Assembly (NCBI GenBank): GCA_947568835.1
Contig: OX387603.1
Coordinates: forward strand, 15,648,651-15,712,650
Reading direction: 5' to 3'
Origin: Protonemura montana
Lineage: Eukaryota > Arthropoda > Insecta > Plecoptera > Nemouridae
DNA length: 64,000 nt
The translations under genes were made by a program, and so were the position numbers. Under the pieces are notes generated by a model. That model was given only the letters and a program-made list of their open reading frames with translations. It made no database searches and was not told where the DNA came from. Below, one piece after another: positions 5,689 to 23,766 of this stretch; position 1 is the first letter of the stretch, and each line of letters begins with the position of its first letter.

Positions 5689-6031
5689 GTGAGTGTCCGC
5701 TACTGAGTTGGGAGGAAGGAGATTGATTTTGATGACGATTCGAATGAGCGTGATCAGCACAGAATTCGTGGCGTTTTGGATATAAGTCCATTAAATATTT
5801 CTTGTGAATGTCGAATTAAATCCCACTGGTGAGAGTGTGTTTAGAAGCGATTATAGAAAAGGACGCATGATCCAATAACATATATACACAAATGCTCAGT
5901 ACCGTACTAATCATCTTCAAAACGAGCAATTCAGATTTACCGGATGTAAATGTCCATCGCTTCCTGGTTTCTCTCCCTAGACCCTTAGTCCAGGAGACCG
6001 AGACACAGTGAAGCTAAAAAAGGAAAAAGTA

Positions 6032-8492
6032 TTAACCTTATATAAAAGCCTTAATTTAGCGATGTTCAACTTTTTAGTTTGTATCTGGCTGGGATGTATG
6101 TGACGTTAGCTGAAATGGTGATAGAAATTGCGAAATTTGGTCAAAAACGTGTGCAATTGGGTTATATTTGTTCGTAATTCTGCTCTCCATTGCTGGATGA
6201 CATTTTGACGGCGATTTGAGAGCGATCTCATGGTGAAAAGTTGCTAAATATGACGGCAAGATATCTCAGAGCCAGGCGATACAGCTCGATTTTTATAACT
6301 CTTTTAATACTCAAGTTTTGCTAGCCTCGAGCTCCACGGTGATTTTTCATGCATTCGTATTAAAGTTGTTGATGTAATTGAGCGAAAACACATTTAATTG
6401 CGATCGTTTTACGTGAAAAAGAATTAATTTTGCTAATAAACTGACAGCTTTGATCATTTGTTTGCTTTTTTGACACCACGGCAAGGTGTACGATATCGTG
6501 AATGTATCTTTTCGGCAGTGAACCTAGGATTTTCAAACGTCAAATTCAAACGTCAAAGTCAACGTCAAAGTCAACGTCAATGCAAATTCTTTTCAAAATC
6601 TCCAGAACTGAAGGAAAAACGTGTGATTATTTTGGTTCTTTATTCAGGATTTAATCCCGCTACGTCACGGTGATTTTAAAGTGCATTATTATAGTAAAGT
6701 TTTAAAAATATTGTTGGTGTCTTAGCTAACAAGATGAAAAATAGCCACTTGACAAGCCCGTGGCATTCTTGTGGAGGTTATTTACACGTCAAAAAGGTTT
6801 GGAAAGTTAAACAATCTATTAACACAACTATTGGAATCTTTTGTAAATATATATAAATATATTTATTGTAAAAAGTATACGAAAGACGAGAAATTTCTTA
6901 AAATACGACGATTTTTCTCCATCCCCAGCCTAGACAAGATCACACAGTTGATTCCAAGCCAGCAATGATATTTGTGACAATTATGTAAATCAATAACAAT
7001 CCTAACTTTCTTTGCAGATCTTTAAGACATTATAATGGGGTTTTTAAACAAACAAAACACACCTGATTAGTTTTTAATTGATAATTTTGCCAAAACTAGA
7101 TTTAAAGTGACATTGACAGATCAAAGATAAACATTTGACAGATATCTTTCATCGAATCAGGACGCCGTGGATATTTATTTTATTTTCGAGAATGCCGTGA
7201 TCATTCAACAGGTATTTAAATTCAAAACGTCATTAATGACAGAGTGCAGTTTTATCAAATCTAATCCAAATGCGCAATCTAAGTTTAATATGGTTTTCTC
7301 TGGAATTGTATGGTATTGTATAGTACTTTATGGTGTTATATGGTAGTCTATGGTATAAGGTGATATTGTATGATATTGTTTGGTATTCTTTGGTATTTTA
7401 TGGAGTTCTATAGTATTCTATGATATTCTATGGTAATCTATGGTATTCTATGGTATTCTATGGTGTTCTATGGTATTCTATGGTATTCTATGGTATTGTA
7501 TGGTATTGTATGGTATTGTATGGAGTTTTATGGTATTCTATGGTATTCTATGGTATTCTATGGAGTTCTATGGCATTCTAAGATATTGTATTTATTCTAT
7601 GGTATTCTATGGTATTCTATGGTATTCTATGGTATCTTATGGTATTCTCTGGTATTCTATGGTATTCTATGGTATTCTATGGTATTCTATAGTATTCTAT
7701 GGTATTCTATGATATTTTCTGGTATTCTATGGTATTCTATGGTAATCTATGGAGTTATTTGGTATTGTTTGGTATTCTATAGTGTTCTATGGTATTCTAT
7801 GATATTGTTTGGTATTCTATGATATTGTTTGGTATTGTATGGTTTTCTATAGTATTCTATGATTTTCCATGGTATTCTATTGAGTTTTATTGTATTTTAT
7901 GGTATTCTATGGTATTCTATGGTATTCTATGAATTTCTATGGTATTCTTTGATATTGTTTGGTATTCTATGATATTTTATGGTATTGTATGGTATTGTAT
8001 GGTATTATATGGTATTGTTTAGTATTCTATGGTTTTCTATGGAGTTCTATGGTATTCTATGATATTGTATGGTATTATGATATTATATGGAGTTATATGG
8101 TATTCTATGGTATTCTTTAGTATTCTATGGAGTTCTATGGTAGTCTATGATATTGTTTGGTATTCTATGGTATTCTATGATATTCTATGGTATTCTATGG
8201 AGTTCTATGGTATTCTTTGGTATTCTATGGTATTCTATGGAGTTCTATGGTATTATATGATATTGTATGGTTTTCTATGGTATTTTATGATATTCTATGG
8301 TATTGTATGGTATTGTTTGGTATTGCATAGAACTTTTAGCTGTGGTCCTTTTTAGAGAATTTCGATAGGGCATCAAAGAAAACTCGAGAAAGTTGTCGAT
8401 GTTGTGTGGATTGTTTATAATGTGGAGAGTTGAAACCAAAATGCCCACACCCTCGACATCAACTGCAGCCGTTAGGCAGCGGGTACTGCTAG
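6032..8492 (+). mobile_element. Non-autonomous Helitron, array copy 1
   Basis: The 5' end reads TTAACCTTATATAAAAGCC and the 3' end reads GGCAGCGGGTACTGCTAG. The 3' end has a short GCC-GTTA-GGC hairpin and the CTAG terminus typical of Helitrons (CTRR). The left flank is A6031, as expected for A|T insertion. The first 530 bp match copies 2 and 3 closely, and about 6590-7330 also matches copy 3. No transposase is present. The body holds a GTCAAA-rich patch near 6540-6590 and about 1 kb of decamer minisatellite. The open frames across that minisatellite (repeating MVFYGILWYS-type text) are artefacts. It presumably relies on a Rep-helicase such as that of copy 3. Confidence 0.85.
7290..8330 (+). 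repeat. Decamer minisatellite (TATGGTATTC)n, long allele
   Basis: Roughly 100 imperfect copies of the 10-mer TATGGTATTC run for about 1.04 kb. Common variants are TATGGTATTG, TATGGAGTTC, TATGATATTG and TTTGGTATTC. The same satellite occurs at the corresponding place in array copy 3 (10687-10990) but is only about 0.3 kb there, and it is absent from copy 2. It is therefore an internal component of this Helitron family that has expanded in copy 1. Confidence 0.92.
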
Positions 8493-9412
8493 TTAACCTT
8501 ATATAAAAGCCTTAATTTGGCGATGTTCAACTTTTTAGTTTGTGTCTGGGCGTCTGGGATGTATGTGACATTGAGCTGAAATGTTGATAGAAATTGCGAA
8601 ATTTGGTCAAAAACGTGTGAAATTGGGTTATATTTGTTCGTAATTCTGCTCTCCATTGCTGGATGACATTTTGACGGCGATTTGAGAGCGTTTTCATTGT
8701 GAAAAGTTGCTAAATATGACGGCAAGATATCTCAGAGCCAGGCGATGCAGCTCGATTTTATAATTCTTTTAATACTCGAGTTTTTCTTGCTTGGAGCTCC
8801 ACGGTGATTTTTCATGCATTCGTATTAAAGTTGTTGATGTAATTGAGCGAAAACACATTCAATTGCGATTGTTTTACGTGCAAAAAGAATTAATTTTGCT
8901 AATAAACTGACAGCTTTCATCAATTGTTTGCTTTTTTGACACCACGGCAAGGTGTACGAAATCGTGAATGTATCTTTTCGGCAGTGAACCTAGGATATTC
9001 AAACGTCAATGTCAATGTCAACGTCAATGTCAAATTCTTTTCAAAATCTCTAAAACTGAAGGGAAATAATTGACAGAACTGAAATATTGTTGGTGTCTTG
9101 GCTAGCAAGATTGGCTAGCCCAGATTGTAAAAGGTATTTCACAAGTTTCACTCTTTAAGAAATATTTCAAGAAATCATACACGGAAATCTTTTGACAGCC
9201 AACGTCGTTTGTTTTCGAAATTGTCATCGTGGTCACTTTGGAATACCACAGAGTCTCCACAATGCAGTGACCCCGAGTGACATAAGTGGCAAATTTCAAA
9301 TTCAATTCATGGGGGTACTTTTGGTTGTGGTCCCATTAAAGGCTTTACAATTGAAATCAAAATGCCCACTTCCTCAAAATAGAAAGCGGCCGTAGGCAGC
9401 GGGTTCTGCTAG
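8493..9412 (+). mobile_element. Non-autonomous Helitron, array copy 2 (internally deleted)
   Basis: It starts directly after the CTAG of copy 1 with the same TTAACCTTATATAAAAGCC end, and stops with GGCAGCGGGTTCTGCTAG. About 530 bp at the 5' side is nearly identical to copy 1. Beyond 9060 it lacks the middle section and the decamer satellite of copies 1 and 3, and retains only fragments such as TATTGTTGGTGTCTTGGCTA, so it is a 920-bp deletion derivative. No coding capacity. The TGTGGTCC and AAAATGCCCAC words near its 3' end recur in the 3' end of copy 1. Confidence 0.83.
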
Positions 9413-10686
9413 TTAACCTTATATAAAAGCCTTAATTTGGCGATGTTCAACTTTTTAGTTTGTGGGTAGGTAGGTGGGTCTCTGGGATGTAACCGGCCGC
9501 TCTACTGGTTATGGAAATTGTGAAATTAGACTCAAAACGTATGGAAATGGGCTAGAATTTTTCAGAATTAACTTTTACATTGGCAGGCGACATTTTCACA
9601 GCGATTTAAAATCGTTTTCATGGTGAAAAGTTGCTAAATATGACGGCAAGATATCTCAGAGCCAGGCGATGCAGCTCGATTTGATAATTCTTTTAATACT
9701 CAAGTTTTTCTAGCCTGGAGCTCCACGGCGCATTTTCATACATTCGTATTAAAGTTGTTGATGTAATTGAGCGAAAACATATTCAATTGCGATCGTTTCA
9801 CGTGAAAAAGAATTAATTTTGCTAATAAACTGACAGCTTTGTTCAAATGTTTGCTATTTTGTCACCTCGGCAAGGTGTACGAAATCGTGAATGTATCTTC
9901 TCAGCAGTGGATTATCAGGCCAAATTAAACGTCAAATTCAAACGTCAAAGTCAACGTCAATGTCAAATTATTTTCGAAATCTCCAGAACTGAAGGAAAAA
10001 CGTGTGAAATTGGCTTACATTGGTTCATAATTCAGGTTTACATCCCGCTACGTCTTTTTCACGGTAATTTCAAAGTGCATTATTATAGTAAAGTATCAAA
10101 AATATTGTTGGTGTCAATTGGCTAGCAAGATGAAAAAGAGCCACTTGACAAGCCCGCAACATTCTCGTGGAGGTTATTTACACGTCAAAAACGTTTGGAA
10201 AGTTAAAAAATCTATTAACACCACTGTTGGAATCTATTGTAAATATATTTAAAGATATTTTTTGTAAATAGTATACGAAAGACGAGAAATTTCGTGAAAA
10301 TACGACGATTTTTCTTCATCCCCAGTCTAGACAAGATCACACAGTTGATTCCAAGCCATCAATGATATTTGTGACAATTATGTAAATCAATAGCAATCCT
10401 ATAAACTTTCTTTGCAGGTCTTTAAGACATTAAATAGGGTTTTTAAACAAACAAAACACACTTGAATTGTTTTTTATTGAAAATTTTACCAAAACTAGAT
10501 TTAAAGTGACATTGACAGATCAAAGATAAAAATTGACAGATATCTTTCATTGACTCAGGACGCCGTGGATATTTATTTTATTTTCGAGAATGCCGTGATC
10601 ATTCAACAGGTATTTAATTCAAAACGTCATTAATTACAGAGTGCAGCTTTAAAAAATCTGATCCAAATACGCAATCTATGGTTTAA

Positions 10687-10990
10687 TATGGTTTTCTATG
10701 GAATTGTATGGTATTGTATAGTACTCTTTGGTGTTATATGGTAGTCTATGGTATTACGTGATATTATATGGTATTGTTTGGTTATTTACGGTATTCTATG
10801 GAATTGTACAGTATTTTATGGTATTGCATGGTAAAGTATGGTATTTTACGGTATTCTATGATATTCTATGGTATTGTATGGTATTGTTTGGTATAATATG
10901 GAATTGTATGGTATTTTATGGTATAATATGGTATTGCATGGTATTGCAAGCTAAAGTATGGTATTCTATGGTATTCAATGGTTTTTTACA
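10687..10990 (+). repeat. Decamer minisatellite (TATGGTATTG/C)n, short allele
   Basis: About 30 imperfect copies of the TATGGTATTN decamer lie in the autonomous Helitron, at the position matching the 1-kb satellite of array copy 1. The preceding sequence (about 9970-10686) aligns with 6590-7289 of copy 1. The repeats are more degenerate than in copy 1. Confidence 0.88.
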
Positions 10991-11234
10991 GGCGTAAAAA
11001 TTGTATGTTTATAGAACATTTTGTGTTCAATTGTGTTTCTTTCATGAGTTTTCAGATAAATTTAGTAGTGATTTAACCCGTAATTAATAAGCTAACCTCT
11101 AAAGACACATTATTACGATCACTGTCCGCAATAATTTTACTTCTGACTTCATTCATTTACAGCGTGTAGCATCGACAGCTTCTTATGGCACGTAATTTAA
11201 ATCGTCGCGCGTGGTGTAAAAGTTTGAATTTGCG

Positions 11235-11823
11235 TGACGTCATTTTACGTAGCGGGATGATGGTTTAGCGCTTTTTGATCGGCATCTACGCTCGGCAATT
11301 AGTCACACTCCCAAAGCCCGCCAGCCGCCATTTGCTATAGCAGTTAGTCTAGCATGAGAGTGCGGATTACCTACACGGCGAAACACTCTTGTGGGGAAGA
11401 ATTTCGTCGCTATTCAAGGTAATCTTATTTCAGATTTAATTTGCATGTCACAATATCCTCTAATAGTCAACCCCTAATATCATCAAGTGATTCAATTATT
11501 TATAGTGATTTTATAGCGTTTAGCTTCTAAATTATTCTTAAAATTATCGTTCATCATCAAGACTGGAAAGCATACATTTTGCCCGTCTTGTGGATATTTC
11601 CATGACGTCATTTTTACGTAACATGATGCAATCGCTCGACGCGATTCTCATCCCCCTCCCCAACCCTCCCATGCCCTACGTTCCAACAATTAGAAGTGTG
11701 TTCAACATGGCGTCCAAGCTCGCATTCGAAGCAAATTAGCATATTTCTTTGTAAAGAAACTGAAGTGATTGTTGTGCATATTAAAGCATACATTTAGCCT
11801 GGCATGATATTTGCATGAGGTCA
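11235..11823 (+). promoter_or_regulatory. Probable Helitron promoter region with repeated CRE-like sites
   Basis: The palindrome TGACGTCA, the consensus of CREB/ATF-type bZIP sites, occurs at 11235-11242 and 11603-11610. Both copies continue into ATTTT(T)ACGTA. A degenerate third copy, TGAGGTCATTTTTACAAAAC, begins at 11816. Around the second and third copies an AAAGCATACATTT word also recurs about 215 bp apart, so a unit was duplicated. This block lies just upstream of the Rep-helicase gene and is GC-richer than the element's 5' half, which fits a promoter. Its activity is inferred. Confidence 0.4.
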
Positions 11824-11915
11824 TTTTTACAAAACATGGCGGTTGGTTCGCGCTCAGCCACGCTCCGCTTCAGCTCGGCGACGCTAGGCACTAAAGCATC
11901 GTTTTCTTTACACAG

Positions 11916-14900
11916 ATGCCACCTAAGAAGCGTGTAAATCTGACGTCTCGGAAAGGCGGAAAAGGTGCAACGGCAAGAGCAGAGAGCGCGGCGGCGAAGA
12001 AAAGGGCTGCTGCTGACGAGAGGGCGAGGACGAGAGAGACGGCCGAGCACGCCGACCATCAGGCAACTGCTAGCCCGTCGACGTCGACGCTCGACGAGCA
12101 GCGTCCTTTTCTTTCCGCTATTCTCGAAGAAGCCCCGGTGAGTGTCTTAAAGCATGATTCATTATTAGAACAGGCCGCCCCCGCTTCTCTTCCAGCTTTT
12201 TATGATCAACCCTCTACAAGCCGCTATATGCATTCATTTCCCGACAATGTGCCATCTGTACTACCATCCCTTGACCAAACTCAGATCCTGGAAAATTCAG
12301 TTGGCCAGCTCCATGAGGACAAGAAAGTGCAAGTAGCAGCAAACGAACGGAGTGCCCGACTAGCGGAAAAAGCTAGAAATGCTCGCCAGCGCAGAAAGGC
12401 TGAGGATGAGGCCCAGCGTCTTCTGCGTCTGGCCCAGGTTGCCGAGTCGAAGCGTCGACGACTAGACGAAGCTTCTGAGGGACGACGCCTACAGCTTCTT
12501 GCTGAAAAGGCTGAGTCTGAGCGCCTCCGCTTGACAAAATGTACCGAAGAACAGCGCCTTCAGCGACTAGCCCTTCAGGCAGAGTCAAAGCGTCGCCGCT
12601 TGAGTGACGAAGCTGACAAACAGCGCCTCCAGCGACTAGCCCTTAAGGCAGAGTCAAAGCGTCGCCACTTGAGTCACGAAGCTGACGAACAGCGCCTTCA
12701 GCGACTAGCCCTTATGGCAGAGTCCAAGCGTTGCCGCTTGAGTGATGAATCTGACGAACAGCGCCTTCAGCGACTAGCCCTTATGGCAGAGTCAAAGCGT
12801 CACCGCTTGAGCGACGAAGCTGAGGAACAGCGCCTTCAGCGATTAAGCCAGAAGGCAGTTCAAACGCAGTGTGAAAGGCAGCATGAGACTACAGAGGCGC
12901 GCGAGAGCCGATTAGTCGCCGCGCGGGAGCGATCTCAGCAGCGTCGAAATGCCGAGACCAGGGATAAGCTCGCGGCGTTCGAAGTGGAAGTCTCTCAGCG
13001 CGCTGAGGAGGAGGCGTCTCAACGCGCCCAAGAGGCTGAACTAGAGCAAAGCCAGCGAGTCGCGGTCGAGGCTATTGACGTGGCAGACGATCAGTTCGAA
13101 CCTGATCTTGCTCCAGTGAACCTTCATCCTTTCCACTTGGAGGCTGCACGGCAAGACGTCGCTGACGTCGCCCTCTTTCACTGCGGCAGCATGGACGAAG
13201 TATGCAGGGTGTGCGGCGCTCTGTACTTCGCAGGAGAGCGTCCATCTGACAAAATTTACAAACTCTGTTGTCACTCGGGCAACGTAATCCTCGAGCCTCT
13301 CCTCGCGTATCCCGATTTAATGCATGCGTTGCTGACCGGAGATCATTGCGAGTCTAAGAACTTCCGCAAAAACATCCGGTCGTACAACAGTTCGCTCTCC
13401 TTCGCTTCAGTCGGAGTTAAGACGGACATCCCCCAGGGCCGTGGCACATACTGTTTTCGTGTCCATGGCAACATCCAGCACAGGATCGGCCATATGGGGC
13501 AGGCGGTGCAGAAGCCCCTCTATTCGCACCTGTACTTTCTTGACGCGGAACAAGCGAAGACGCATCGAATGGACAGGCGCCAGAATGCTAATCTGCTACC
13601 CAACCTGCTTCATGAGCTGGACGCGCTGGTTCGCGAAATAAATCCTTTTGCCCAAGGGCTTAAAACGTTAGGTCAGGTGGAGGCCGACGACAGGATCCGT
13701 GCAGCTGCCGAGGGGCGACCCGAGGTCATGGCCGAACTGCGTTTCGTGGATGACCGACGGCGGCTGTACGAAAATCCTACGGCCCACGAGGTGGCCGTTG
13801 TCTATCAGAGCGTTGACGGTGGCATGCCTCCTCTAGGACGTGATATTCGTATCCATACTCGTGGCGGATTTATTGAGCAGCTGTCTGTCCTGTCGCCCAA
13901 CACGGATCCGCTCAGCTACGTGCTGTTGTTCCCGCGTGGAGAACCCGGCTGGCAACGAGGTATGCCGCACACCAGGCAATCTAAGCACAGCGTCGTCACT
14001 CTAATGGAGTTTTATAGCCATCGACTCCACGAGCGTGTCGGCGCCTTCCATCCAGTGCTGCACGCCGGCAAGCTGACGCAGCAGTTTATGGTAGACGCCT
14101 ATATCAAGGTTGAGGGCAATCGCCTTGAGTTCGTCATCAGGAACCAGAAAACGCTGCGCGCCGAACTCTACAGTGGGCTCATGGACCACTTGGCGAACCG
14201 TGCTGAGCGGCAGGGCTGCAATGTCGGGAAGATGGTGATTCTGCCTTCCAGTTTCATCGGAAGCCCCAGGCATTGCCAGCAGCTATATCAAGACGCTATG
14301 AGTATCGTCACCAAGTTTGGAAAACCCGATCTTTTCCTTACTATGACGTGTAATCCGAAGTGGCCTGAGATTCAGACGAGCCTAGCGGCGTACGAAAGGG
14401 CAGAAGACCGACCCGATCTCACCGCGCGAGTATTCCAACTTAAACTCAAGGAGCTCATGTCTGATCTCACCAAGAGGCACGTGCTGGGCGTTCCCATGGC
14501 TCACTTCCACGTGATCGAGTTCCAAAAACGTGGACTCCCTCACGCTCACATCCTGGTAATCCTTCGCGACGAGGACAAGATCCGCACTCCCGAGGAGGTA
14601 GACGCACTTATCTGTGCCGAGTTGCCCGATCCGGTGACCGAGGAGAGACTGCACAAGGTCATCGTGTCGTCGATGATCCACGGCCCGTGCGGCGCTCGGA
14701 ACATGTCCTCTGTGTGCATGGAGGACGGAAAGTGTAAGAAGAAGTTCCCCAAGTCGTTCACAGATGTGACTGTGGTCAACGAGGGGGGTTTCACCGTCTA
14801 TCGCCGTCGAGAGAGCGGGCAGACGCATAGCATCTCAGGAAGAGTGGTCGACAACCGAGACGTAGTGCCTTACAACAAGTACTTAAGCTCCAAGTTTGAC

Positions 14901-17459
14901 TGCCACCTGAACATCGAGCACTGTGGATCCGCGAAGACGGTCAAGTACCTGTGCAAGTACGTGTACAAAGGTCACGACTGTGCCAGGGTCCAGCTCCGCG
15001 TCTCTGTCCCCGCGGAGGGCGATCATGAGCCACGTCCAGCGCACGGTGCCCAGCAAGAGTTGGTGTGGGACGAGGTCTCACAGTTCATCGACTCTCGCTA
15101 CGTGAGTCCCCAAGAGGCTGCGTGGAGAATTTTCGGATTTGAAATGCACGAAAAGTCGCACACTATCATCCGTTTGGCGATCCACCTCGAGGGTGACCAC
15201 ATGGTCACGTTCCGTCCTGGAGACGAGGAAGCCGCAGCAGAACGCGGCAGGGCTGCGCTGACTACGCTGACGGCATGGTTTGCGCTGAATAGTAGCAACC
15301 CGGCGGCACGGCAGTACAAGTACATCGACATCCCGTACCACTTCCGTTTCGAGGGCAAAGCGTGGAAGCCACGAAAGCGAGGTGCCGGCTCCATCATCAG
15401 CCGAATGTACTCCGTGACGCCCCGGCAGATCGAGCGATACCATCTTCGTCTCCTTTTGCTACACGTCGCCGGCGCCACTTCATTCGAGGACGTGCGCACG
15501 TTCCAGGGTAGGGTTTACGCTACCTTCAAGGAAGCTGCCATCGCACGCAACCTGCTAATGGACGACGACGAGTGGCAGAAATGTCTGCAGGAGGCGGTTG
15601 CTATAAAGATGCCAAACGAACTTCGTCAGCTGTTTGCTATCATTTGCGCGTTCTGTCAGCCTCTTGACCCGCTGTCTCTATGGGAGCGTTTCAAGGGCGA
15701 TTTCTGCGAAGATTTCGCCCGAGAACACGACCCCATCGAGGCAGAACAGTTGGCCCTGAATTCCATCCAGTCCGTCCTTGCCCTACACCGCCTGACCAAC
15801 GCCGAAATCGGTTTGCCGGCGCCTCGAGTGCCAGTCATCGTTGCTGTCGACGAGCAGTTCGACCAGACCGCCGAAAGGGAAGAGGCCGAGGAGAACTTGG
15901 TGAAGCTCAACGGCAGGCAGCGCGTGGCATTCGACGCGGTGATGGCAGCAATCGACGACCCGAACGCCGAGCAGAGGTGCTTCTACCTGGACGGCCCGGG
16001 CGGCAGCGGGAAGACCTTCCTATACAACACCCTCATCAGCACGCTGCGAGCCCGAGGCGAGCGAGCCGTGGCCGTCGCGTGGACGGGCATTGCGGCGACG
16101 TTACTGAAGGGAGGGAGGACCTGCCACTCGCGATTTCGATTGCCTGTTCCGATTGTGGAAAACAGCACGTCTGGCGTGAAGCCCAACTCCGCCGAGGGCG
16201 CTTCGCTGAGGGCGGCCAAGGTCATCATCTTGGATGAAGGACCCATGGCGCCTCTGCTGGCCCTGAACGTGATCGAGCGGACGCTAAGAGACGTGACAAA
16301 CGATGAGCGTCCGTTCGGCGGAAAGGTGATCGTTATCGGCGGGGATTTTAGGCAGTGCCTCCCAGTCGTTCGAAATGGCAACCGAACGACCATTGTCGAG
16401 CAATGCATTAAGCGTGGCGCGCTTTGGTCGTTGTTCCGCACCCTCGAGCTGCGCGCGAACATGCGCGCCAACCCAGGCGAAGTAGAGTTCGTCGAGTGGC
16501 TCTTGCGTGTCGGAAACGGCGAGATTTTGAATGACTGCCACCTCCCGGATGACACCATCGCATTACCTGTCCAATGCGTCGTGGACTGCGTCATTGACGC
16601 CGTCTTCGGCACGAGCATTAGTGCTGCCGAGATGGCCGTGATGCAAGACCATGCCATCCTCTGCCCGAAGAACGTGGAGTCTTTGAACATCAATGACAAC
16701 GTTCTTGAGCGCCTCGAAGGTGACGTGTTCGAATACTGCAGCGCCGACACTGTCGATGTCAGTGAAGGCGAAGATGGCGACGTTTTGGCTACCGATTATC
16801 CCGTAGAATATCTAAATTCATTAACGCCATCCGGGATGCCACCGCACAAGCTTCGTCTGAAAGTTCATGCAATCGTGATGCTCATGAGGAACGTCGACGT
16901 GAGAGCCGGCCTATGCAATGGGACTCGACTCAGCGTTGTTGCACTCCACGAGCACGTGATCGACTGCAGGATCATCGGAGGGCGCTGTGCGGGACGACGC
17001 ACTTTCCTATGTAGAGTCAACCTAACTCCCTCGGACATTGGCATGCCCTTTACGATGACAAGGCGCCAGTTTCCGATCCGTCTGGCATTCGCCATGACCA
17101 TCAATAAAGCCCAGGGTCAATCTTTAAAGAGGGTGGGAATTAATTTAGAAAAACCAGTATTCGGACACGGTCAGCTATACGTGGCGCTTTCTCGGGCTCG
17201 CTCTTTGGACTCGATCTTCGTGGCAGTCGCCGGTAACGAGGCGCAGGGCAAGTTGATCGTCTCGAGCAACACCACCTTCACCAAGAACATCGTGTACCAG
17301 GAGGTGCTCGAGATTCATGCGCCGGACCACCAGGCAGCGGATCCTTCCTCGCGTAGTGGCTATCAAGAGGCTGACCAGCAGGCCCTTGAGCAGTCGCTTA
17401 GTCAACTCGCTGTATCGGATGCGGATGAAGAAGTTCCAATGGACGCCTCCTCCTCCTAA
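11916..17459 (+). CDS. Helitron Rep-helicase (RepHel), intact
   Basis: This 1847-residue rolling-circle transposase is expected to nick and rejoin single strands at the element's ends and to unwind DNA 5' to 3' in the nucleus. A basic, low-complexity N-terminus is followed by 23-residue alpha-helical repeats (about 169-312) and a Cys/His cluster (C430, C433, C451, C452, H453). The Rep nuclease follows, with the HUH-type motif GLPHAHIL (873-880) and the paired tyrosines of YLCKYVYKG (Y1011, Y1015). The SF1/Pif1-like helicase has Walker A GPGGSGKT (1360-1367), Walker B VIILDE (1436-1441), GGDFRQCLPVV (1475-1485), AMTINKAQGQSL (1726-1737) and YVALSRARS (1755-1763). No stop or frameshift interrupts it. 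The ATG follows a strong splice acceptor (TTTCTTTACACAG), so a 5' UTR intron is likely. The gene is clearly GC-richer than its surroundings. No endonuclease or RPA domain was seen. Confidence 0.95.
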   Translation: MPPKKRVNLTSRKGGKGATARAESAAAKKRAAADERARTRETAEHADHQATASPSTSTLDEQRPFLSAILEEAPVSVLKHDSLLEQAAPASLPAFYDQPSTSRYMHSFPDNVPSVLPSLDQTQILENSVGQLHEDKKVQVAANERSARLAEKARNARQRRKAEDEAQRLLRLAQVAESKRRRLDEASEGRRLQLLAEKAESERLRLTKCTEEQRLQRLALQAESKRRRLSDEADKQRLQRLALKAESKRRHLSHEADEQRLQRLALMAESKRCRLSDESDEQRLQRLALMAESKRHRLSDEAEEQRLQRLSQKAVQTQCERQHETTEARESRLVAARERSQQRRNAETRDKLAAFEVEVSQRAEEEASQRAQEAELEQSQRVAVEAIDVADDQFEPDLAPVNLHPFHLEAARQDVADVALFHCGSMDEVCRVCGALYFAGERPSDKIYKLCCHSGNVILEPLLAYPDLMHALLTGDHCESKNFRKNIRSYNSSLSFASVGVKTDIPQGRGTYCFRVHGNIQHRIGHMGQAVQKPLYSHLYFLDAEQAKTHRMDRRQNANLLPNLLHELDALVREINPFAQGLKTLGQVEADDRIRAAAEGRPEVMAELRFVDDRRRLYENPTAHEVAVVYQSVDGGMPPLGRDIRIHTRGGFIEQLSVLSPNTDPLSYVLLFPRGEPGWQRGMPHTRQSKHSVVTLMEFYSHRLHERVGAFHPVLHAGKLTQQFMVDAYIKVEGNRLEFVIRNQKTLRAELYSGLMDHLANRAERQGCNVGKMVILPSSFIGSPRHCQQLYQDAMSIVTKFGKPDLFLTMTCNPKWPEIQTSLAAYERAEDRPDLTARVFQLKLKELMSDLTKRHVLGVPMAHFHVIEFQKRGLPHAHILVILRDEDKIRTPEEVDALICAELPDPVTEERLHKVIVSSMIHGPCGARNMSSVCMEDGKCKKKFPKSFTDVTVVNEGGFTVYRRRESGQTHSISGRVVDNRDVVPYNKYLSSKFDCHLNIEHCGSAKTVKYLCKYVYKGHDCARVQLRVSVPAEGDHEPRPAHGAQQELVWDEVSQFIDSRYVSPQEAAWRIFGFEMHEKSHTIIRLAIHLEGDHMVTFRPGDEEAAAERGRAALTTLTAWFALNSSNPAARQYKYIDIPYHFRFEGKAWKPRKRGAGSIISRMYSVTPRQIERYHLRLLLLHVAGATSFEDVRTFQGRVYATFKEAAIARNLLMDDDEWQKCLQEAVAIKMPNELRQLFAIICAFCQPLDPLSLWERFKGDFCEDFAREHDPIEAEQLALNSIQSVLALHRLTNAEIGLPAPRVPVIVAVDEQFDQTAEREEAEENLVKLNGRQRVAFDAVMAAIDDPNAEQRCFYLDGPGGSGKTFLYNTLISTLRARGERAVAVAWTGIAATLLKGGRTCHSRFRLPVPIVENSTSGVKPNSAEGASLRAAKVIILDEGPMAPLLALNVIERTLRDVTNDERPFGGKVIVIGGDFRQCLPVVRNGNRTTIVEQCIKRGALWSLFRTLELRANMRANPGEVEFVEWLLRVGNGEILNDCHLPDDTIALPVQCVVDCVIDAVFGTSISAAEMAVMQDHAILCPKNVESLNINDNVLERLEGDVFEYCSADTVDVSEGEDGDVLATDYPVEYLNSLTPSGMPPHKLRLKVHAIVMLMRNVDVRAGLCNGTRLSVVALHEHVIDCRIIGGRCAGRRTFLCRVNLTPSDIGMPFTMTRRQFPIRLAFAMTINKAQGQSLKRVGINLEKPVFGHGQLYVALSRARSLDSIFVAVAGNEAQGKLIVSSNTTFTKNIVYQEVLEIHAPDHQAADPSSRSGYQEADQQALEQSLSQLAVSDADEEVPMDASSS
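12420..12851 (+). repeat. 69-bp coding tandem repeat in the RepHel N-terminus
   Basis: It encodes about six copies of a 23-residue unit of the form EQRLQRLALxAESKRxRLSD. The central four copies are nearly identical at the DNA level and the outer ones have diverged, the pattern expected from recent slippage or unequal exchange. Charged and leucine-rich spacing predicts a long helix or coiled coil. A role in self-association or DNA binding is a guess. Confidence 0.85.
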
Positions 17460-17763
17460 ATCCTATCATTGTACTATCCCTTACATTTGCAATAGCGGTA
17501 ACATTTCCTAGATAAATTTAAATTCAGTAAGGCTAGGTAGGGCAGACCAGGAACCGTGACTAGCACGGCAGGCAGCAACCCAATTCCCATATATTTCACC
17601 ATGCTGACACGCTTTTCTGCTGCAGGTATAAAGCACCGGACGCCGCATAGCCCTTTAACTTCACGACCATTGCGCTCGCATGTGGACACTCTAACGGAAC
17701 TGCTCCTCCCAGAGCTAGACAATTATGCATGTACATTAATTGATAGATTATATTGTACATACA

Positions 17764-18245
17764 TTTAGTAAAGTAGTTACTTCTAACTAATAGTATTAGA
17801 AATGCAACCTGCTGTTTTCCATCTGCATGTCATGCATGTTCAAAAAAACAAAAAATAAATAAAAAAACATATCATAGATTTAGTAAAGTAGTTACTTAGT
17901 AGTAAGTAGTAGTAGTTGGTAAGTAAGTAGTTAATTGTTATGCAACCTGCTGTTTTCCATCTGCATGTCATGCATGTTCAAAAAAACAAAAAAAACAAAA
18001 AAAAATATCGTAGATTTAGTAAAGTAGTTACTAAGTAGTAAGTAGTAGTAGTTGGTAAGTAAGTAGTGAATAGTTATGCAACCTGCTGTTTTCCATCTGC
18101 ATGTCATGCATGTTCAAAAAAACAAAAAAACAAAAAAAAATATCATAGATTTAGTAAAGTAGTTACTAAGTAGTAAGTAGTAGTAGTAGTTAGTAAGTAA
18201 GTAGGTAATAGTTATGCAACCTACTGTTTTCCATCTGCATGTTTG
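17764..18245 (+). repeat. About 115-136 bp tandem repeat downstream of RepHel
   Basis: Four units each begin TTTAGTAAAGTAGTTACT, at 17764, 17879, 18015 and 18150. Each continues through an AGTAGTAAGTAGTAGTAG stretch, the words ATGCAACCTGCTGTTTTCC and CATCTGCATGTCATGCATG, and an A-rich tract. The units differ mainly in the length of the GTA and A runs. They lie inside the 3' non-coding part of the autonomous Helitron, where they could affect transcript ending. No coding capacity. Confidence 0.88.
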
Positions 18246-19382
18246 CAATTTTTTTAAGGTCACAATCTTACTTTCGTGTCGGTCTTTTTACTGCATGTTT
18301 CTCTCTTCTTGATTCCATCTTGAAATGTCAAACCAACTAACAACCAAGCATGATAGCATTACACCAGTCTAAAAACTGAACAATGCATCCTACCTATCCG
18401 ACACAGTTGATCCTTGCATGAATCCTTGCACGTCCGCACATCAGAGATTCCTGTTGCTTGCAACGGGCTGCACAATCTTTGATAGTGTAAGGCAGAGGCG
18501 ATGTAGTGTGCGACGATCGCCATGCTGCCGGGGCGGGATGGGGGCCCCGGCATAACAATTATTTTTAAAATTCTCTCAATTAACAGCTTGAATACATTTA
18601 GAAACTTTTTATTTCTCCAAGAATGGTGCCTCTCTCTTGCCGTCTTTTTTATTTTGTTTTAGACCCCCTCCCCCTGCCAATCGTGGAGAAGGAACTTCTT
18701 CATGGCACCATTGCGGAGATTACTTTCAATTACGGATGAACAGTGGCGCTACTGCGACATGGCAGGTCTGCATTGACTGTTGCTTTCAAATGGTCAAAGT
18801 TTTCAACGCAAATCGTCGTAACCATGTGAATATTTCTTATATTTGTAAGAATGATCATAATATTGGCAAATAAAAATTACAATAATTAATAGGTACATTT
18901 TTTTTTGTTTAATCTTCAAAAAAAAACCTTCGTCACTGAAACCAAACCAAAAATATTTGTAATGATTCCTTTCTGTCCAAAAAGCACACCAAATGGTTGT
19001 GTCCTTATAAGCAATGCTGCTGGTTAGCCATCATCGTTGAAGGTACTGGCGGAAATCAGGTATAGTATGGTATATCAAGTCGTAAGGGCATAATACTTTG
19101 TTTTCTTGACATTTTCTCAGTACTTTATTTTGTTGTCCCATAAAAGTTTCTTAAATGTATGCGTAGAGGCTACATTAAGTGTAAAGTCTCGGTTCGGTCC
19201 CAGGGCTTAGGGACTAGATTTTGGCCTAGGCCCATATATTTTTGTCATGATCTATCCTATCGGCATATGCCCTATGGGCATAGGGTACTAGAAAAACATT
19301 AGTGAGCTTTTTGTTATTGCTAATCCAAGTTCAAAGACAATACTAATACTAAAATAAAACCACTAGGGATAAGAACAACAGG
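18246..19382 (+). other. Helitron 3' tail, non-coding
   Basis: AT-rich sequence between the tandem repeat and the terminal hairpin of the autonomous Helitron. No gene is seen. A 7-bp-arm inverted repeat (TATGCCC, loop TAT, GGGCATA) lies at 19266-19282, about 126 bp before the CTAG terminus. Confidence 0.6.
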
Positions 19383-19485
19383 TGCCGTTAGGCAGCGGGT
19401 ACTGCTAGTTTGTATAATATGTTCTACCTTCCAATCACGATAACAATTGTTTACACTTGCAGAGACGAGAGACGGAATTGCAAGA

Positions 19486-23694: not shown

Positions 23695-23766
23695 TTCCCA
23701 TGCCGGGAATCGAACCCGGGCCTGCTGGGTGAAAGCCAGCTATCCTAGCCACTAGACCACATGGGA
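23695..23766 (-). tRNA. tRNA-Glu (anticodon TTC)
   Basis: Read on the minus strand, a 72-nt cloverleaf begins TCCCATGTGGTCTAGTGGCT and ends CCCGGCATGGGAA. The seven acceptor pairs are intact (TCCCATG with CATGGGA) and the discriminator is A. The anticodon loop CTTTCAC gives TTC. The A box (TGGTCTAGTGG) and B box (GGTTCGATTCC) are perfect. A run of five T follows directly at 23691-23687 as a pol III terminator. No intron and no 3' CCA, as expected for a eukaryotic nuclear gene. Confidence 0.97.

Follow-up and report, generated by a model that had tools for sequence, protein, structure and literature searches.

A head-to-tail array of three Helitrons in Protonemura montana, probably grown by serial insertion at the resident left end

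We analyzed a 64,000-nucleotide stretch of the Protonemura montana genome (Plecoptera, Nemouridae; GenBank assembly GCA_947568835.1, contig OX387603.1, positions 15,648,651 to 15,712,650 of the forward strand), hereafter the window, in which three complete Helitrons follow one another head to tail without a spacer between the outer flanking bases A6031 and T19409. The features of this array are listed here by window position; in the text, a slash marks the point where two sequences join or where an insertion falls.

6031..6031, plus strand: outer 5' target base A of a single A/T site (from the sequence)
6032..8492, plus strand: unit 1, non-autonomous, 2461 bp, with a G-type 3' end (GGCAGCGGG); defined by its termini and by 97% relatives that stop at its boundary
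7289..8324, plus strand: 10-bp minisatellite TATGGTATTC within unit 1, about 104 copies
8475..8492, plus strand: 3' terminus of unit 1 (GGCAGCGGGTNCTGCTAG match)
8493..9412, plus strand: unit 2, non-autonomous, 920 bp; defined by its termini and by relatives printed at 100% on contigs C5, C4 and C3
9395..9412, plus strand: 3' terminus of unit 2 (GGCAGCGGGTNCTGCTAG match)
9413..19408, plus strand: unit 3, apparently autonomous Helitron, 9996 bp; defined by its termini and transposase frame
10687..10975, plus strand: 10-bp minisatellite TATGGTATTG within unit 3, about 29 copies
11916..17459, plus strand: Rep-helicase transposase, 1847 aa, uninterrupted (open reading frame, Pfam and Helraiser match)
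12549..12842, plus strand: 69-bp tandem repeat coding for 23-aa STPR repeats at the transposase N-terminus (Pfam PF21107, aa 248-309)
19391..19408, plus strand: 3' terminus of unit 3 (GGCAGCGGGTNCTGCTAG match)
19409..19409, plus strand: outer 3' target base T (from the sequence)

The boundaries of the units are exact. The 5' sequence TTAACCTTATATAAAAGCC starts at positions 6032, 8493 and 9413, and the 3' sequence GGCAGCGGGTNCTGCTAG ends at positions 8492, 9412 and 19408; at up to three mismatches, these are the only three matches to each in the window (chance means of 0.03 and 0.10, respectively). Both inner junctions read CTAG/TTAACC. The three units are of three different types, and only unit 3 carries a transposase gene. 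A first-pass annotation of this DNA had described three head-to-tail Helitrons with shared termini in one target site, two of them without a gene and one with it, and the terminus matches, the unit structures and the 1847-aa frame bear out that description. As a side observation, the 10-bp minisatellites within units 1 and 3 share the form TATGGTATT[C/G], and more than five TATGGTATT motifs are carried by 17 of the 20 sampled units of 2.3-4.5 kb.

The protein encoded by unit 3 identifies the family. Pfam places a Helitron_like_N domain (PF14214) at aa 699-881 and a PIF1 domain (PF05970) at aa 1330-1538, giving the canonical Helitron arrangement of a Rep (HUH) domain followed by a PIF1-type helicase in one protein. 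Its top match in the Protein Data Bank (PDB) is the bat Helitron transposase Helraiser (7lcc; 1287 bits), which aligns over aa 304-1799 and nearly the whole Helraiser chain. The HUH stretch (HAH) and the tyrosines Y1011 and Y1015 align with Helraiser and its Y727 and Y731, in a printed alignment that ends before the helicase part; a Y727F/Y731F mutant of Helraiser is named in PMC5876387. Besides the window, 11 full-length, stop-free protein matches were found among the 25 scored of 2246 candidates, two of them printed at 100%. Near-identical copies of this kind suggest that the Helitron has been active recently.

The ends of the units agree in part with those of canonical Helitrons. All three units end in CTAG, in keeping with the canonical CTRR, and all three begin with TTAACC rather than the canonical TC; the same 5' end is conserved across the 96 units sampled, all of them selected for carrying it at up to three mismatches. 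Insertion falls between A and T, as is canonical, in a sample of 33 groups. Folding of the last 30 bases, tested for the 3' hairpin, is weak in units 1 to 3 (z of -0.27, -0.19 and -1.42). The elements do not behave as Helentrons, since their target is A/T and not T-rich, and no endonuclease domain is present among the eight Pfam matches at 0.001 in the transposase. Residues ~212-309 of the transposase consist of 23-aa STPR repeats (window 12549-12842). In the silkworm protein FMBP-1, an STPR-type DNA-binding domain binds an A+T-rich 9-bp motif, according to PMC4821344. Our guess is that the STPR repeats could possibly read the left end and the target; we found no paper combining Helitron and STPR among openly licensed PubMed Central papers.

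We searched the genome from which the window comes (258.5 Mb in 34 contigs) for the inner junction CTGCTAGTTAACCTTATA and found 647 exact occurrences (384 + 263), as against none for the reversed control. This is the search that the first-pass annotation had proposed for finding out how often tandem copies occur, and the answer is that they are common. With ~900 5' ends (249 + 647) and 1105 3' ends, random insertion at A/T sites would be expected to yield ~0.01 junctions, or 0.14 when target base preference is allowed for. The 3' ends were counted as those followed by T in three patterns (109 + 259 + 737), and 77 of the first 100 listed for the 737-end pattern are junctions. About half of these 3' ends adjoin another copy, a share that is approximate because the patterns are strict: they require a T after the end and miss ends with G at the last place.

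The insertions use the exact edge of the resident element. Among 211 different target flanks, positions 7 to 12 past the end are A+T-rich (the T at position 1 was imposed by the search pattern), and we considered whether this motif alone could cause the arrays. The element's own 5' end scores within the top 4.1% of 8240 background A/T sites, and 47% of real targets score as high; by motif score it is thus a good target and not a special one, and we rejected the A+T-rich motif as sole cause. Two other A/T sites, lying 9 and 11 bp inside the same 5' end, received one insertion together, the same number as in the reversed control.

We then examined a sample of 33 groups comprising 103 units and 70 inner junctions, taken non-randomly from the first contigs of the junction listing. 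Of the 33 groups, 30 have A immediately ahead of the first unit and 3 have G; the three G cases are inner junctions, and one of the 30 A cases is an inner junction minus its G. All 33 groups have T directly behind the last unit, three of these again being inner junctions. Some arrays contain altered ends. In a ~22-kb array on contig C4 (L035-37; C4:66001-92000), two units have the 5' end TTAACCTAAAAGCC and one inner junction lacks its final G, and these units still belong to the array. At C4:2115060, C3:2434214, C14:3455958 and other places, CTAG abuts the variant 5' ends TTGACC... and TTTACC..., so that related subfamilies may serve as additional landing sites. Separately, array matches cluster at 60-740 kb on C4 and on C7, C8 and C15, with segments that share the same flanks, for example C4:316199 and C4:544386.

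We think it probable that the array in the window arose by serial insertion of single Helitrons at one place, the left end of the resident copy. Members of this family insert at A/T and themselves start with T, so that each insertion regenerates an A/T site at its left edge (A/TTAACCTTATATAAAAG). We infer that the transposase takes its own left end, presumably its cut site for starting transposition, as by far its favored target. The CTAG end of a newcomer would then join the TTAACC end of the resident, the newcomer would become the new left-most unit, and arrays would grow leftwards from one original A/T site. In the window, unit 3 would be the oldest unit and unit 1 the youngest. Insertion at the regenerated site would leave an outer A and T and an inner G/T junction. 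The first-pass annotation had taken the G/T inner junctions to mean that the units were not independent insertions; that argument fails, since the left edge A/TTAACC is itself a fresh A/T target, and a G/T inner junction is no evidence against independent insertion. Unequal exchange and the occasional movement of a joined pair would be superimposed on this growth.

A pair of arrays on contig C4 differs at the left edge. L029 (C4:388001-394800) and L030 (C4:555501-561000) have 5' flanks identical at 502 of 502 positions and 3' flanks that agree at 99.75% over 397 bp. Units 4, 5 and 6 of L029 correspond to units 1, 2 and 5 of L030, the number of mismatches being 0, 0 and 1, with a single 1-base gap in the second pair; L029 has three additional units, all of them at its left edge. 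Unit 4 of L029 matches unit 1 of L030 over 923 bp with no mismatch, and units 1 and 4 of L029 agree for their first 18 bases and diverge at base 19. Loss of the three units from L030 by one exchange between L029 units 1 and 4 would need a crossover within the first 18 bp. The same two facts bear on the idea that perfect inner junctions arise when a circular copy, its ends joined, recombines homologously with a resident copy and is integrated there. Circles with precise junctions are described for Helraiser in PMC4778049, and circles are suggested for FoHeli1 in PMC5148889; such integration should leave reciprocal chimeras, at odds with an L029 unit 4 that equals L030 unit 1 throughout and with the first difference between units 1 and 4 at base 19, and we find this origin hardly credible.

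Unequal exchange or replication slippage between copies, starting from separate insertions or from one copy, has left traces in other arrays. L030 contains a two-unit duplication with a chimeric unit whose first bases come from L029 unit 6 and the remainder from unit 4, with the crossover between about bases 57 and 151; this is a mark of unequal exchange. L027 contains a repeated 1055+1083 pair and L009-11 a duplicated stretch. We considered the L009-11 stretch as a second example of growth at the left edge and did not count it, its breakpoints being unclear. Exchange multiplies and shuffles units that are already present and brings no unrelated units to an exact edge; the three units of the window are of different types, and L030 unit 1 is the same as L029 unit 4 along its whole length. 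We accordingly regard exchange as a very improbable origin for the arrays: the first-pass annotation had offered it as one explanation, and it is visible in L030 and not needed for the window.

The other explanation offered there was rolling-circle read-through, by which one event, perhaps through multimeric circles, lays down several units and the arrays are concatemers or travelling blocks. According to PMC4778049 and PMC5876387, Helraiser produces circles whose ends are joined exactly head to tail, and by PMC4778049 it is able to bypass its 3' end; the weak fold of the last 30 bases in the three units might allow such bypass, and one junction elsewhere is printed at 100% identity in four places. 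Read-through concatemers of one copy would have near-identical neighbors, and the three window units are of three types. We compared neighbors in the sampled arrays, leaving out L030 and L032 as second copies of duplications, and found them mostly unrelated. Of 72 short units, 2 have their nearest sampled relative in the adjacent unit, 6 in another unit of the same array, 7 in another array at the same locus and 57 at another locus. Among 22 adjacent pairs of the same class, one shows a difference of no more than 1%, which is not what a rolling-circle concatemer would give. When units at different loci are alike at 98.5%, their neighbors are alike in 0 of 40 comparisons, and at 99% in 0 of 21 (these bigram comparisons exclude pairs within a locus or between duplicated segments). 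Together with the relatives of the window units described next, these results make read-through a rather unlikely source of the arrays.

We searched for relatives of the window's own units. A joint search with units 1 and 2 gave 53 rows, with 14 scored of 1128 candidates, and the window itself is the single match among these rows that spans both units. The three nearest relatives of unit 1, at 97%, break off at its end, and the three closest relatives of unit 2, printed at 100% on C5, C4 and C3, begin within 6 bases of its start. The relative on C3 stands alone at an A/T site, and that at C4:727948 heads another array and is followed by a unit-1-like element (85%), the reverse of the window order. 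A copy of unit 3 with the same 9996-bp span lies on C2 at 28293598, its first 523 bp identical, and another on C4 at 486078 is 99.4% identical over the first 523 bp; the unit in front of each is similar in its last 877 bp to the tail of unit 3 (97%) and not to unit 2. No match above 98% to the junction of units 2 and 3 appears elsewhere among the 40 scored of 1683 candidates. Judged by these similarities, the unit order of the window is not kept among the closest relatives of its units, which counts against both read-through and movement of the array as a block.

Several observations weigh against serial insertion at the left end, the first group of them because unit orders recur. On C14, a stretch resembling unit 1 (95%) precedes a unit resembling unit 2 (95.8%), an order that also favors read-through or blocks; the same order occurs on C1 (L012; 88% and 97.9%), and the rows for C12 suggest it there too. 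The 0.9-kb class makes up 39 of 96 sampled units and 8 of the 15 units that follow a 2.3-4.5-kb unit, and since it is so frequent, chance recurrence of the class order is expected; the C14, C1 and C12 cases might nonetheless descend from an older shared pair. The unit 3 copies on C4 and C2 share their preceding junction (99.7% over 877 bp and 99.4% over 523 bp). Further, a junction between a minisatellite-bearing unit and a T-type unit (12.37 kb, C4:473708) is repeated over 500 bp: among the 40 scored of 1842 candidates, it has the full score at C4:473401 (L040, C4:473401-473900) and C4:6185312, is printed at 100% at C11:2078574 and C11:2105287, and is found at 94-97% in nine further places. 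The two C11 places could reflect one local duplication, as rows 26.7 kb apart also appear in the search with the junction of units 2 and 3. This pair, a likely composite Helitron, probably travels or is copied in one piece.

Other contrary points concern likeness, age and direction. One adjacent pair differs by just 0.3%. Adjacent units are closer than shuffled ones (p-distance 0.0375 vs 0.0683; P 0.0002; 22 pairs), and remain so within class and subfamily (0.0346 vs 0.0511; P 0.01; 21 pairs), a likeness that would fit successive insertions from co-active lineages. At 98% identity, 2 of 73 bigram comparisons are shared, with ~1 expected. No age gradient is seen: of 20 arrays, the divergence of the 3'-most unit is higher in 9 and lower in 11 (P 0.81), by a proxy, distance to the nearest sampled relative, that is poor in so small a sample. 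For L029 and L030, gain in the former, as opposed to loss in the latter, is our reading of the polarity, and the two arrays, 167 kb apart on one contig, could be unpurged haplotypes. In maize, three lines carry the left Helitron alone, as reported in the part of PMC2267711 covering this locus; that allele fits insertion on the right side or, as its authors propose, excision of the right copy.

Taken together, arrays of this family seem to be built mainly unit by unit, and some joined pairs seem to travel. The first-pass annotation had suggested that the array could move as one unit. For the window array, the order among its closest relatives speaks against this and the pair on C14 (95%/95.8%) for it; what looks like a travelling block, at 100%, is a different pair elsewhere. 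A broader picture, to which we give about even chances, is of a family whose main landing site is its own left end, used thousands of times above chance, with a self-targeting life style, stacks that grow leftward and keep the copies apart from other sequence, a target perhaps read by the STPR repeats, and some stacks moving as composites. For bats and maize, opposing views exist on how head-to-tail Helitrons originate, and this genome, with its hundreds of junctions, near-identical copies that have an uninterrupted transposase and array pair differing at the left edge, makes the question directly testable. It also suggests that one machinery reads both the donor cleavage site and the target site. 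Outside the array, a tRNA gene lies at window positions 23695-23766 on the minus strand, the sole Rfam match at gathering score in the whole window.

Helitrons arranged head to tail have been described in bats, maize and other genomes (PMC2267711, PMC5876387, PMC5148889, PMC4067079). The closest parallel is the pair of adjacent Helitrons in maize, where CTAG directly abuts the next 5' end with a G/T junction and the neighbors are dissimilar; the authors conclude that insertion was consecutive and name a regenerated A/T site as one route (PMC2267711, in the sections on this pair). The maize pair is one case with its insertion order left open, whereas the present genome offers 647 junctions and, in L029 and L030, a duplicated pair of arrays with a left-edge difference. 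Tandem Helitrons of Myotis lucifugus, as cited in portions of PMC2267711 and PMC4067079, likewise show perfect head-to-tail junctions in several cases; they are explained there by rolling-circle replication or terminator bypass, whereas neighbors here are mostly not copies of one another.

Helraiser/Helibat, as presented in parts of PMC4778049 and PMC5876387, resembles the window family in its transposase and aligned catalytic tyrosines, its CTAG 3' end, its A/T target and the A+T-rich surroundings of that target, strongest at the 3' flank. Helraiser begins with TC and the window family with TTAACC. Bat copies inserted directly beside another Helitron are mentioned in these parts, which report no preference of Helraiser for its own left end. 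The proto-Helentron of Phytophthora infestans shares the 5' TT, the 3' CTAG and A/T insertion; its Rep-helicase is described as nearest to Helentrons, and arrays are not described in the portion of PMC4067079 that treats it. FoHeli1/2 insert between T and A, unlike the window family, and three tandem copies in Metarhizium acridum are a single case whose mechanism was left open (PMC5148889). In the openly licensed PubMed Central literature, as far as its text was accessible, we found no array-forming Helitron family at this scale with directional evidence. Head-to-tail Helitrons are thus already known, and what is new here is the scale and the directional evidence.

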